Positions 61,302 through 64,000 of a stretch of DNA of 64,000 bases are shown in pieces. The translations under genes were made by a program, and so were the position numbers. The notes beneath the pieces are model-generated. The model was not told the origin of the DNA. It searched no databases and saw nothing but the letters and a program-made list of their open reading frames with translations. The DNA comes from Billgrantia bachuensis (GTDB taxonomy: Bacteria; Pseudomonadota; Gammaproteobacteria; Pseudomonadales; Halomonadaceae), in the NCBI RefSeq assembly GCF_011742165.1, contig NZ_JAAQTO010000049.1:1-64000 (forward strand). The letters are read 5' to 3'. Positions within the stretch are counted from its first letter, which is position 1; each line of letters opens with the position of its first letter.

Positions 61302-61337
61302 GAGAGCCAGCGCAATGCGCTGGCTCTCGTCTTTTTG
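61302..61337 (+). terminator. Rho-independent terminator after pcaG
   Basis: GAGAGCCAGCGC and GCGCTGGCTCTC form a perfect 12-bp stem with loop AAT, followed by GTCTTTTTGG. It lies 48 bases beyond the pcaG stop. Confidence 0.9.
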
Positions 61338-61641
61338 GCTTACGTTGGCTTGGATCGCTGGTGCAAGCCTGCGATAGCGTATAGGCTGAGGTATGTATTT
61401 ATTTGTAAGCGGATTTTGGCGAGCTTGATAGATAAGAGCCGAGGTTAACTGAGTGATGGTTGGTGGTGGCAAAGGGGAAGTATACCGGCCGCTAACGACC
61501 CAAAGCGGACCTGGCAGCAAAGGCGGCATGCTCGTTCATCCTTGTTATGCGACATGCGCGGTGACTGGTGTTATGTGGCCGAGGTACTCTTGAATGTGCA
61601 TGCGTGTTCATCCGATATCAGACCGTGCGGTCTAATACCTG
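61338..61641. other. Non-coding region leading to the cassette array
   Basis: About 300 bases of visibly more AT-rich sequence. No gene is supported. It contains a TetR-operator-like palindrome AGACCG-TG-CGGTCT (61620-61633) eight bases before the first cassette boundary and a weak promoter candidate (TTGAAT at 61590, GATATC at 61614). No integrase gene and no convincing attI or upstream attC was seen. Confidence 0.5.
61620..61633. promoter_or_regulatory. TetR-type operator-like palindrome
   Basis: AGACC-GTGC-GGTCT is a perfect inverted repeat of the AGACC-N4-GGTCT kind recognised by several TetR-family repressors such as NemR. It stands just upstream of the cassette array, with no tetR gene in this window, so it may be what is left of the promoter into which the cassettes were inserted. 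Confidence 0.4.
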
Positions 61642-62416
61642 TTAGCCATAAGACGCCGTCGACATGACATTACCGATAGCCACGAACATTCCCGAAATTG
61701 ACTTCAATATCGGAGGACTCAGAAGTCATGCCATCCTGAACATTTTTGTTCAAGAACTAGGCCTGTCCGCAGAAGAAATGAAGTTCCGCGGCTGGTTGCT
61801 GCATACGGTTTTCTCGGCTGCTCGGCATTATTCAAGCGCACGACAACTGGTAGTCCAACAGAATAATTCCGACCAACAACGAGATGGTGGTTTGGTTCTG
61901 CATTTATTGGATGTATCGGAAAATTTAGAGGGTTGCGTTACAGGTGTTTATCGATCATGCATGGCAGTGCGCAGAATGCACAGCAAGAGCGAACCATGCA
62001 GAGTTTTTGTTGAATCGTATAGTGGGAAAGTTGATAGCCTTGCTAGGCTTAGAAATCAGTTTGAACACATGCATGGGCAGATTGTATCGGGTGAAACAGG
62101 TGACGGTCCGATCTCAATTATCCTTTCAGGGCAAGGTAGGAGTTTAAGCTTTCGAAGGCTAAAGCTTGACATCACATCTTTGTATGATTTGATACATGGT
62201 TTATATCAGGTGGTTGCCAGTATGTATCCATCATTTTCGAGCAACGTTCCTGTTTCAAATAGACCATGGGAGCCCAAGAAGCTCACTATCTCTGCCTCCA
62301 TGAGTGCAACGGTAATGAGAAAAGGAGAGTCCTCCGATGGCTAACCAGGCCAAGCACAGCGACAGCTTTTCCGTTGCGGCTTCGCCTCCACTACAAAGCT
62401 GCGCGTGTTGGCAGCG
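61642..62416 (+). mobile_element. Integron-type gene cassette 1
   Basis: A cassette holding one ORF (61664-62344) and its 3' attC. The left boundary is G^TTAGCC (G at 61641) and the right boundary G^TTAGTG (G at 62416). When circularised, its ends would join R'' GGCTAAC (62339-62345) with GTTAGCC, an exact reverse complement, as true cassettes require. The sequence is clearly more AT-rich than the neighbouring pca genes. No integrase is in the window, so this is an integrase-less cassette cluster or the tail of a distant integron. Confidence 0.72.
61664..62344 (+). CDS. Hypothetical cassette protein with HEPN-type R-x4-H motif
   Basis: Protein of 226 residues, no signal peptide or membrane segment. 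Residues 125-140 read LARLRNQFEHMHGQI, where Arg130-Asn131 and His135 give the R-N-x3-H (R-x4-H) motif of HEPN ribonucleases, in a predicted helical setting. Codon use is AT-rich, unlike the flanks. The start lies 22 bases inside the cassette, and the TAA stop is part of the attC R'' box. HEPN assignment is a pattern-level inference; a family name was not recognised. Confidence 0.6.
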   Translation: MTLPIATNIPEIDFNIGGLRSHAILNIFVQELGLSAEEMKFRGWLLHTVFSAARHYSSARQLVVQQNNSDQQRDGGLVLHLLDVSENLEGCVTGVYRSCMAVRRMHSKSEPCRVFVESYSGKVDSLARLRNQFEHMHGQIVSGETGDGPISIILSGQGRSLSFRRLKLDITSLYDLIHGLYQVVASMYPSFSSNVPVSNRPWEPKKLTISASMSATVMRKGESSDG

Positions 62417-62422
62417 TTAGTG
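62339..62422 (+). other. attC recombination site of cassette 1
   Basis: R'' GGCTAAC (62339-62345) pairs with R' GTTAGTG (62416-62422) through CTAAC/GTTAG. L'' GCCAAGCAC (62349-62357) pairs with L' GTGTTGGC (62405-62412), leaving G62354 extrahelical, and the stem continues GCG and CAGCTTT against AAAGCTG and CGC with A58 and A62 of line 62300 also unpaired (62358, 62362). Matching arms with extra bases only in the left arm is the hallmark of attC sites folded for integrase. Confidence 0.75.
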
Positions 62423-63246
62423 CGAATACTCGCTGCTGAAGGTCGGATATAAGGGGGAATAGTGGTCAAGACGGAAATCCTATCGGTCAGGGATCCGCAG
62501 TGGGTCGACGAGAACCGCACCGCGATCAACTGCTGGGTTAGAACGAACACGCTCGTGCAGGAGGTTCCCTTTACGGCTACGCCTTATGATCCGGAGCCCC
62601 ACGGGAGAGAGCTTTTCGCGAGGTGCCTAGCTGGCGAGTTTGGAGATATTGCTGCGCCGGAGGCACAGCGCTTGCCTGCCCCCATGCCGCCGGCAGAGGT
62701 TCCCGTCCAGCTAAAACGGCTGGAGAGGTTTCTGAGCCACGCAAACCTCGAGAATGCTAGGAAGTCATTTCGCAGTGTCGTGATTGTTTGGGCGTCATTT
62801 CTCGACGGCCTTCTAGATGAGTTGCTAGAAATTGAGGCTTTGCGCGCTTCCGCTGCGGGCGAAGCAGTGGGAAAGCCGCCGCACACCTTCGATGACCGGA
62901 TCAAGCGAGCCTTCGCCGCCGGATTAATCGATCAGGAAGAGACTGACAGGTGCCTCCACATAAGGCGTATACGGAATGCGGCGGCTCATGATTGGGAGCT
63001 TTCCCTTGAGACAGAAAGTGTACTGCCGGGTCTGCGAGCGCTCCATGAGGCGGATCACTCTGAGGTGTTGGTTTTTCAAGATGACTTAGATTATTTGCTC
63101 CAGCGGGTTTACAGTGCCTCTTGCGCCATGCTCATCATGCGGCTGCTTGAGCGCCTGCCAGTCGAGGCGGCGTAAAAGCGCTAACAAGTCCATTGAGCGA
63201 ACGGACAAAAAAGCTGGCGTTTTTCGTCCGTCGCTTATGTCCAGCG
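62417..63246 (+). mobile_element. Integron-type gene cassette 2
   Basis: A second cassette with one ORF (62462-63175) and a 3' attC. Its left end TTAGTGC (after G62416) and its R'' GCGCTAAC (63178-63185) would be complementary in the circle (GTTAGTGC against GTTAGCGC) with one G-T difference. It is in the same orientation as cassette 1, with the attC on the 3' side, as in all integron arrays. Confidence 0.7.
62462..63175 (+). CDS. Cassette protein: phage-tail-associated N-terminus plus MtlR/HEPN-like domain
   Basis: Protein of 237 residues from a GTG start with AAGGGGGAATA upstream. Residues 1-65 (DPQWVDENRTAINCWV ... VPFTATPYDPEPHGRELF ... GEFGDIAAPE) resemble a small domain common beside phage tail-fibre genes. 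Residues about 85-235 look like the MtlR/DUF4145 HEPN group: VWASFLDGLLDELLE, TFDDRIKRAFAAGLIDQEE, then IRRIRNAAAHDWEL with R171-N172 and His176 as the R-x4-H motif. Both similarities are from motif recognition. Cytoplasmic; function unknown, possibly phage sensing and RNA cleavage. Confidence 0.62.
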   Translation: MVKTEILSVRDPQWVDENRTAINCWVRTNTLVQEVPFTATPYDPEPHGRELFARCLAGEFGDIAAPEAQRLPAPMPPAEVPVQLKRLERFLSHANLENARKSFRSVVIVWASFLDGLLDELLEIEALRASAAGEAVGKPPHTFDDRIKRAFAAGLIDQEETDRCLHIRRIRNAAAHDWELSLETESVLPGLRALHEADHSEVLVFQDDLDYLLQRVYSASCAMLIMRLLERLPVEAA

Positions 63247-63252
63247 TTACAT
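63178..63252 (+). other. attC recombination site of cassette 2
   Basis: R'' GCGCTAAC (63178-63185) faces R' GTTACAT (63246-63252). The inner arms AGCGAACGGAC (63196-63206) and GTCCGTCGCT (63226-63235) pair with one extra A in the left arm (A200 or A201 of 63200-63201), and the stem closes with A6/T5 around GCTGGCG. The R' box is imperfect (GTTAC for GTTAG), so what follows need not be another intact cassette. Confidence 0.68.
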
Positions 63253-63316
63253 CAGTATTTATTAAATGTCCGCTTATGGCCGAAAGCCATCACTCACCCT
63301 CGGAGCTATCGCCTGT

Positions 63317-64000
63317 TCACATGCGGTGATTCTCTAGTAGGAAGTCCACGAACAATCGCACCCGCGCCGGCATCGCCGAGCCACCCACGAACACCGCATG
63401 AATGGGTTCCCTATCACCGGGATTGAAGGCTTCCAGCAGCGGCACCAGGTCGCCGCGCTGCAAATCCTCGGCCACGCTGAATTCGCCGATGCGCGCGATG
63501 CCGGCGCCCACCCGTGCGAATTGCGCCAGCGCCTCACCGCTACTGCATTCGATATTGCCGCATACCTTGAGGGAGAATGCCTGGTCGTCGCGGATGAACG
63601 GCCAGTTGGGTTCAGCACGTCGGAAGTTGAAGCGCAGGCAGTTGTGTTGCAGCAGGTCTTCCGGTTGCTGCGGCGTGCCGTGGCGCTGGAGATAGGCTGG
63701 GGAGGCCACCACCACCTGGCCGGTATCGCCTATGCGGCGAGCGGTCAGTGGGCTGTCGGGCAGATGGCCAAAGCGCACGGCTACGTCGGCCTGGCCGCCG
63801 AGAATATCGACTACTTCGTCGCCCAGAGTGAGGTCAACAGTGATGTTCGGGTAACGCGCGCTGAATGCGGTCACCAACGGCACGATGGCCAGCCGCCCGT
63901 GGCCGAGCGCAGCACTTACGCGCAAGCGGCCTTTGGGCACGCCCTGGTCAGCAATGGCCTCTTCGACCTCGGCCATATCGGCAAGGATGCGTCGAGCACC
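63317..64000 (-). CDS. LysR family regulator, N-terminus beyond window edge
   Basis: C-terminal part (about 227 codons) of a LysR-type regulator. The open frame continues to the window end without a stop, so the HTH domain lies beyond 64000 and the ATG at 63976 is not the true start. The effector domain begins GVPKGRLRVSAALGHGRLAI and includes GQADVAVRFGHLPDSPL and ARVGAGIARIGEF, typical of the CrgA/DsdC-like solvent or aromatic-stress group of LysR proteins. G+C content returns to the core level here. Confidence 0.9.
   Translation of the reverse strand, partial: GARRILADMAEVEEAIADQGVPKGRLRVSAALGHGRLAIVPLVTAFSARYPNITVDLTLGDEVVDILGGQADVAVRFGHLPDSPLTARRIGDTGQVVVASPAYLQRHGTPQQPEDLLQHNCLRFNFRRAEPNWPFIRDDQAFSLKVCGNIECSSGEALAQFARVGAGIARIGEFSVAEDLQRGDLVPLLEAFNPGDREPIHAVFVGGSAMPARVRLFVDFLLENHRM

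Follow-up and report, generated by a model that had tools for sequence, protein, structure and literature searches.

How did two integron gene cassettes come to lie downstream of pcaG in Billgrantia bachuensis, with no integrase nearby? The locus is part of a window of 64,000 nucleotides (here, the window is the whole stretch of DNA analyzed, positions 1 to 64,000 of the forward strand of contig NZ_JAAQTO010000049.1); we refer to its genome as G000 and to other genomes, contigs, and loci by G, C, and L numbers. A first-pass annotation, made from the sequence letters, described two co-oriented ORFs beside pcaG, each with an attC-like site directly 3', and read them as a CALIN (cluster of attC sites lacking an integrase). 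Both ORFs and their sites are present (ORFs at 61664 to 62344 and 62462 to 63175), the pcaG neighbor matches TIGR02423 at 222.8 bits (cut-off 126.25), and the cassettes are more AT-rich than their surroundings, as had been claimed (GC of 0.45 to 0.59 over the cassettes compared to 0.61 to 0.74 in the flanks, in 500-base windows). Having two attC sites and no neighboring integrase, the locus does belong among CALINs; the label is incomplete, however, and misses a two-armed unit with an attI-like site that encloses the cassettes. We consider it likely that the cassettes occupy a non-autonomous "satellite" integron platform, of which dispersed copies exist, and that this copy was loaded in trans by IntI and has been orphaned. 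Its features are as follows, with cassette spans running from the TT to the G of successive G|TT crossovers:

61487 to 61590, + strand: LEFT arm, with the outer inverted-repeat end GGCCGCTAACGACCCAAAGCGGAC (model R1 positions 1 to 104, 77.2 bits, E 8.1e-23; 30-sequence alignment)
61591 to 61644, + strand: attI-like site ending at the crossover (model R1 positions 161 to 215, 22.9 bits, E 4.5e-6)
61641 to 61642, + strand: putative crossover G|TT between platform and cassette 1, where homology with a cassette of G024:C10 starts
61642 to 62416, + strand: cassette 1, G|TT to G|TT; matches the G024:C10 cassette at 78% over that span only
61664 to 62344, + strand: cassette 1 ORF, 226 aa, found in 2 of 275 family genomes
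62339 to 62422, + strand: attC of cassette 1 (71.4 bits, E 8.7e-16)
62417 to 63246, + strand: cassette 2, G|TT to G|TT by sequence reading
62462 to 63175, + strand: cassette 2 ORF, 237 aa (domain matches below)
63179 to 63252, + strand: attC of cassette 2, the last attC, whose R' extends into the RIGHT arm (22.1 bits; E 0.0047 over 64 kb)
63246 to 63293, + strand: RIGHT arm, GTTACATCAG-N14-CCGCTTATGGCCGAAAGC, found by pattern search; inverted repeat of the LEFT end (75% against 61491 to 61510)

The covariance check proposed in the first-pass annotation for 61400 to 63400 recovered both attC sites with a model of our own, and these were the two matches obtained in the 64-kb window at E≤10. The model contains 21 sequences, none from G000 and one of them the attC of the G024 homolog of cassette 1; it was built from an alignment of 26 sequences after removal of 5. 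Pairing held in 88.1% of alignment cells, compared to 63.5% in shuffles and 28 to 38% in slid versions, although these statistics are biased toward structure because the sequences were first chosen by a folding script. The bottom strands of the two sites fold more stably than their dinucleotide shuffles, with z scores of −2.11 (equaled by 8 of 200 shuffles) and −3.52 (by none of 200). The circularization pairing that had been judged by eye is correct: cassette 1 starts GTTAGCC and has the R'' GGCTAAC, an exact complement that overlaps the stop codon, and cassette 2 starts GTTAGTGC and has the R'' GCGCTAAC, complementary except for one G-T. R''/R' and L''/L' pairing is found at the 3' end of each ORF, as in integron cassettes; G|TT boundaries and movability are also found for cassette 1, and those of cassette 2 are read from its sequence.

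The boundaries of cassette 1 can be compared with those of a homolog. At E≤1e-4, its protein was found in 2 of the 275 family genomes, G000 itself and G024, where the homolog lies on a different contig from pcaG in an array headed by an arm-less attI type. Identity between the two loci is 0.78 from 61641 to 62418 and 0.35 over 80 bases on each side; the homology begins at GTTAGCC and ends just past the next GTTA, which is the pattern predicted by site-specific cassette exchange. Among the matches listed in a DNA search of 90 genus genomes, none covers cassette 2 except in G000 itself. On these results, neither ORF is a fixed core gene in most relatives, an outcome that the first-pass annotation had named as contrary to its reading. 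The cassette 1 ORF matched nothing in Pfam (E≤0.2), NCBIfam, or PADLOC, and our search for cassette 1 on plasmids returned none. Residues 1 to 113 of the cassette 2 protein have weak similarity (36% identity) to a protein annotated as tail fiber assembly in one plasmid record, and the C-terminal part is weakly DUF4145/HEPN-like (DUF4145 E 2e-4, below the cut-off). The mean pLDDT of the predicted structures is 65.7 for the cassette 2 protein and 45.7 for the cassette 1 protein.

Could these be two ordinary genes followed by fortuitous hairpins? The attC of cassette 2 alone is weak, being absent from the 11 matches obtained in the whole genome at E≤1, and cassette 2 has no homolog by which to place its boundaries; the last attC of an array takes its R' half from the platform, and this hybrid R' may account for the weakness. 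Given that an exact-boundary homolog of cassette 1 stands at an unrelated locus, which refutes fortuity for that cassette, that the attC of cassette 1 has many 85 to 97% copies elsewhere in the genus, and that both sites share the family context described below, we attach almost no probability to this explanation.

In line with the first-pass annotation, no integrase was found: none exceeds the curated IntI cut-off in G000 (a draft of 80 contigs, 99.99% complete). The best IntI-family matches score 79.4 and 65.9 bits against a cut-off of 265, and all 14 control genomes also match the IntI family, none of them above the cut-off. The genome-wide attC search that had been suggested gave 11 matches in G000 at E≤1: five on C33, two on C24, and one each on C26, C22, C16, and C44 (cassette 1). 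On C33 (26530 to 35972; L088 and L172), five attCs follow an attI of the arm-less, integrase-adjacent type, and no intI match was found at L088 or L172; by reading of translations, the neighboring ORFs are cold-shock/DUF1294-like and catalase-peroxidase-like. The attC matches on C24, C26, and C22 (L197, L198, and L199) are accompanied by neither arm nor attI-like site, and we read them as plain CALINs or off-target insertions.

The 160 bp upstream of cassette 1 are a repeat found throughout the genus. In aligned copies, an arm of approximately 85 to 105 bp starting TGNCAGCTAWCGACCCAAAGCGGNCATG is followed by a stretch resembling the region upstream of intI, which ends at G|TT; after the last attC comes GTTAYATCAG-N-CCGCTTNTGGCCG. 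A search with the RIGHT-arm pattern (spacer 8 to 24) gave 19 matches in 14 of the 90 genus genomes; the spacer measures exactly 14 in 17 of these matches, and the reversed-pattern control gave 0 in the same 90 genomes. The outer ends of the LEFT and RIGHT arms are inverted repeats of each other at 17 of 22 consensus positions (0 of 10,000 shuffles; per-unit identity 0.61), so that the unit has the terminal inverted repeats of a MITE or non-autonomous transposon. Compared to a complete integron, the window locus lacks intI and has a putative attI, homologous to sequence flanking intI in other genomes, from which model positions 105 to 160 (approximately 55 bp) are missing between the LEFT arm and the attI part. 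The attI region may serve as a promoter; a consensus scan for Pc found no sigma-70-like site, and an Rfam search returned nothing relevant.

If the cassettes had inserted off-target into an attG-like genomic site, neither an attI nor a platform would be expected there. Such insertion has been described (PMC12901181, PMC12444791), and three other attC loci of G000 lack either arm. At the window locus, however, attI-like sequence runs up to the first crossover, a RIGHT arm specific to the family begins at the last one, and the LEFT arm and attI part also lie downstream of pcaG in G020, G023, G026, and G042. We therefore regard off-target insertion as highly improbable here.

How does the attI part of the platform relate to the attI of integrons that retain their integrase? 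We compared 20 native with 47 unit sequences, having dropped duplicates and rows of <50 letters in the segment and excluded L026, an intI locus in which different DNA precedes intI. In each of the 20 integrase-adjacent regions, sequence occupies <45 of the leading 80 model columns; the LEFT arm is thus absent beside intI. The integrase-adjacent attI of G039 matches the model from position 66 or 86, depending on the search, and aligns with the attI part of the units over approximately 130 bp; in G004, the two reach 98% over 55 columns. These alignments bear on another explanation, in which the arms are an unrelated intergenic repeat (a transposon end, MITE, or terminator-like element) that attracts insertions, and the similarity to attI has no function. 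The inverted-repeat ends would suit such an element, as would units without most of the attI part (in G056, only model positions 2 to 47 match). The extent of the attI similarity and the single orientation shared by the downstream attCs argue against it, and we consider it quite improbable. A separate idea, that the attI of units is co-adapted to the resident attI, was unsupported (0.735 for own compared to 0.724 for permuted pairs, 1,104 of 5,000 permutations, 9 genomes). Further attI-like matches (G035:C1:197976 to 198141 and 573033 to 573194, and matches on G011:C114 and C147) start at model positions 51 to 55, lie away from their own genome's intI, and have at most part of the LEFT arm.

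The platform is abundant. With the arm-plus-attI model, 83 of the 90 genus genomes match at E≤1e-5, a count that includes arm-less and integrase-adjacent attI; among the 150 matches listed, at least 129 are full-length arm-plus-attI copies, distributed over 58 of the 90 genomes. In 35 of those 58 unit-bearing genomes, G000 included, no IntI was found at E≤1e-60. At E≤1e-8, matches extend to 221 of the 275 family genomes, belonging to 17 of 24 genera, again with arm-less attI included. Several copies can share a genome, some of them distant from intI: on contig 1 of G078, intI is at 2.16 Mb, and the full-length units are at 0.73, 2.33, 2.90, and 2.91 Mb. Based on the 150 matches listed only, unit presence and intI presence were not associated across the 90 genus genomes (Fisher p 0.50). 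Searches for the LEFT element found none on plasmids and phages (by blastn with one copy) and none in viral contigs (by exact pattern). An exact-pattern search of named genomes gave 13 stretches, 12 of them in Halomonas, Billgrantia, Modicisalibacter, or Onishia. The sole match outside these Halomonas-group names is L184 of Marinobacter azerbaijanicus (NZ_JASSVS010000017.1, 714 to 2893), with a LEFT arm, two attC matches, and a weak RIGHT arm.

Of the 68 LEFT-bearing units that we defined in the extracted loci, 51 also carry a RIGHT arm, and one or more attCs were scored in 54. The 51 two-armed units have a median length of 2.3 kb from LEFT start to RIGHT end (range 0.6 to 7.7 kb); the RIGHT arm begins where a scored attC ends in 26 of them, and 11 contain no scored attC. 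Considering 54 loci together, we obtained 116 attC matches, 15 of which are training sequences of the model, chosen downstream of attI; 109 of the 116 are oriented as a unit in their own locus. Between arms and on the unit's strand lie 78 matches, in stretches that make up 130 of 652 kb; a further 27 lie ≤8 kb downstream of a LEFT arm without a RIGHT arm, 4 lie elsewhere on the unit's strand, and the remaining 7 are in L102, where there are only partial LEFT matches, on the same strand. Tandem units exist, in which a RIGHT arm is followed after 19 to 31 bp by the next LEFT arm. We found no empty unit (attI fused directly to the RIGHT arm) in the loci examined. The units may have spread as mobile or copied elements. 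A target-site duplication is not clear (10 of 51 units compared to 6.35 expected for k=5, and 5 of 51 compared to 1.5 for k=6), and the similarity of the two ends of one unit (0.614) is close to that of ends taken from different units (0.606).

These counts also bear on an ordinary origin by decay, in which a complete integron, original to this site or a duplicate, lost intI and left the arms as remnants. Loss of intI is an accepted route to CALINs (PMC8618304), and it does happen, because the integrase-adjacent type of attI on C33 of G000, with its five attCs, stands without intI. Independent losses are not expected to leave the same arm each time, however; unrelated sites share a conserved LEFT arm, which is missing before the integrase-adjacent attI in 20 of 20 loci, and tblastn searches with three IntI proteins (E≤1e-5) detected no intI in the 719 kb of 53 unit loci. 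We judge decay of a complete integron to be unlikely for this locus, and we retain the satellite platform as the preferred reading.

A platform that stays at its chromosomal site while its cassettes turn over would leave pairs of species in which orthologous sites have the same flanks and different interiors, and such pairs exist. The flanks of G004 and G047 are 92% identical over 421 and 92% over 462 bases, those of G000:C16 and G042:C23 are 88% over 146 and 94% over 324 bases, and those of G057 and G068 are 77% over 413 and 82% over only 44 bases; in each of these three pairs, the interiors have no blastn match. In G034 and G078, the left flank alone is common (90% over 500 bases). Conversely, some cassettes are common to different sites.

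The pcaG site itself is occupied repeatedly. A LEFT arm lies downstream of pcaG in 9 of 24 genomes examined (G000, G020, G023, G024, G026, G040, G042, G056, and G086), a set that is not random, as some genomes were chosen since an earlier search showed the arm near pcaG; in G024, G056, and G086, the match covers only the first 47 to 66 LEFT positions. In G024, the LysR flank of the window (97%) directly follows the RIGHT arm, so both sides of the pcaG platform of G000 are present in this genome as well. The cargo differs in six genomes examined: besides the two ORFs in G000, it includes a KAP P-loop NTPase in G024, an SMC-like ATPase (LmuB-like) in G056, an HNH protein and AbiGi in G020, an ATPase and AbiTii in G040, and a beta-flower protein in G042. 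The sole interior match at this site is a 76-bp stretch common to G000 and G042 (84%), approximately the length of an attC. In the comparison with an empty site that the first-pass annotation had proposed, G048, compared to G056, has no unit downstream of pcaG and is near-empty, but the junction is not that of a clean excision. At two further sites, a search for both flanks in the loci examined gave no clean empty site; at the second of these, G067 has both flanks with approximately 0.9 kb of other DNA between them and no arm.

We made several further observations downstream of pcaG. In L145 (G089:C15:1 to 300), the LEFT arm breaks off after approximately 14 bases at a sequence bearing GGCTGTGTGAAAAC; this sequence is likewise found after the RIGHT arm in L101 and, in a form with a single change, in L154, and it is perhaps the end of an insertion sequence. 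L145 was left out of the unit count. In the same locus (G089:C15:3089 to 6617), the terminal part of pcaG, together with what lies downstream of it, occurs twice, approximately 3 kb apart. The pcaG terminator and the following ~110 bp (61302 to 61413 of the window) recur 1 to 6 kb downstream in L134, L137, L138, L141, and L143, so the region downstream of pcaG may itself be a site of repeated insertion.

Anti-phage genes in cassettes have already been reported for other integrons. Among the 120 ORFs of ≥85 codons between arms, the matches listed (25 of 68 families in one search and 25 of 123 in another) include Shedu, ThsA, AbiTii, TIR, and Schlafen, as well as pPIWI-associated nuclease families and GajA/PtuA-type AAA ATPases. 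Our impression is that unit cargo is enriched in anti-phage functions.

In the satellite reading, the platform would supply attI and the cassettes attC; cassettes would circularize and then insert at the G|TT of the platform attI or of an attC, with recombination catalyzed in trans by an IntI encoded elsewhere in the cell, and the platform would stay fixed at its chromosomal site as the cassettes turn over. A non-autonomous integron of this kind would be the simplest account of the exact boundaries, the orientation of the attCs, the cassettes common to different sites, and the turnover at fixed sites. Other results weigh against it: unit and intI presence show no association, unit attI sequences are no closer to the resident attI than to others, 11 two-armed units lack a scored attC, neither a clear target-site duplication nor a clean empty site, an empty unit, or a sigma-70-like promoter was seen, and three attC loci of G000 have no arms. 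Because no integrase was found, trans loading is not expected now in G000 or in the other unit-bearing genomes without intI (35 of 58 in all), where the platforms would be relics. The array in G000 is probably frozen, given that no integrase was found and that its attI lacks approximately 55 bp. For the wider proposal, that satellite integrons of the Halomonas group are extra docking sites, filled in trans by a chromosomal IntI and serving as hot-swap sites for anti-phage genes at fixed positions, we see the chances as evenly balanced.

If platforms are loaded in trans, one integrase would serve several cassette-exchange sites per cell. The pairs with the same site and different cargo allow a direct test of whether cassettes turn over in the absence of a local integrase. 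In the open-licence PMC literature, we recognized no description of repeated integrase-less attI platforms; subscription journals lay mostly outside this search. CALINs are about as numerous as complete integrons in a published survey (2,961 and 2,760, respectively), and attI is poorly described outside class 1 integrons (PMC9024848); for this reason, platforms of this type would be invisible to IntegronFinder. The origins named for CALINs in one account are off-target insertion, loss of intI, and rearrangement, with no such platform among those it lists (PMC8618304). Several origins have been proposed, and here there is a family-wide set with a common, recognizable platform.

Like a CALIN, the window has two attC cassettes and no integrase nearby; unlike a CALIN, it holds them in a unit that brings an attI-like site of its own, is bounded by two conserved arms, and is a member of a dispersed repeat family. 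The units resemble sedentary chromosomal integrons in that their attI is homologous to the attI adjacent to intI in the genus, and cassette 1 is common to the array of G024:C10 headed by an arm-less attI. They differ from them in being short, in lacking intI, in having another conserved arm before attI, and in occurring in several copies per genome. MITE-flanked mobilized integrons have short inverted-repeat ends and no transposase. The unit likewise has short inverted-repeat ends, apparently without a transposase; here, however, a target duplication is not clear, and attI is part of the unit itself. Integrase-less clusters at conserved chromosomal positions away from intI are also known from the off-locus CALINs of Xanthomonas, whose description, as far as it was available, mentions no attI or repeated arms (PMC12444791). 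Finally, the Delta-attI-type cassettes of mobile integrons also carry pieces of attI away from the native attI; as described, the attI piece of such cassettes lies inside a cassette of a class 1 or class 2 array, whereas here it heads a separate chromosomal unit (PMC12901181).
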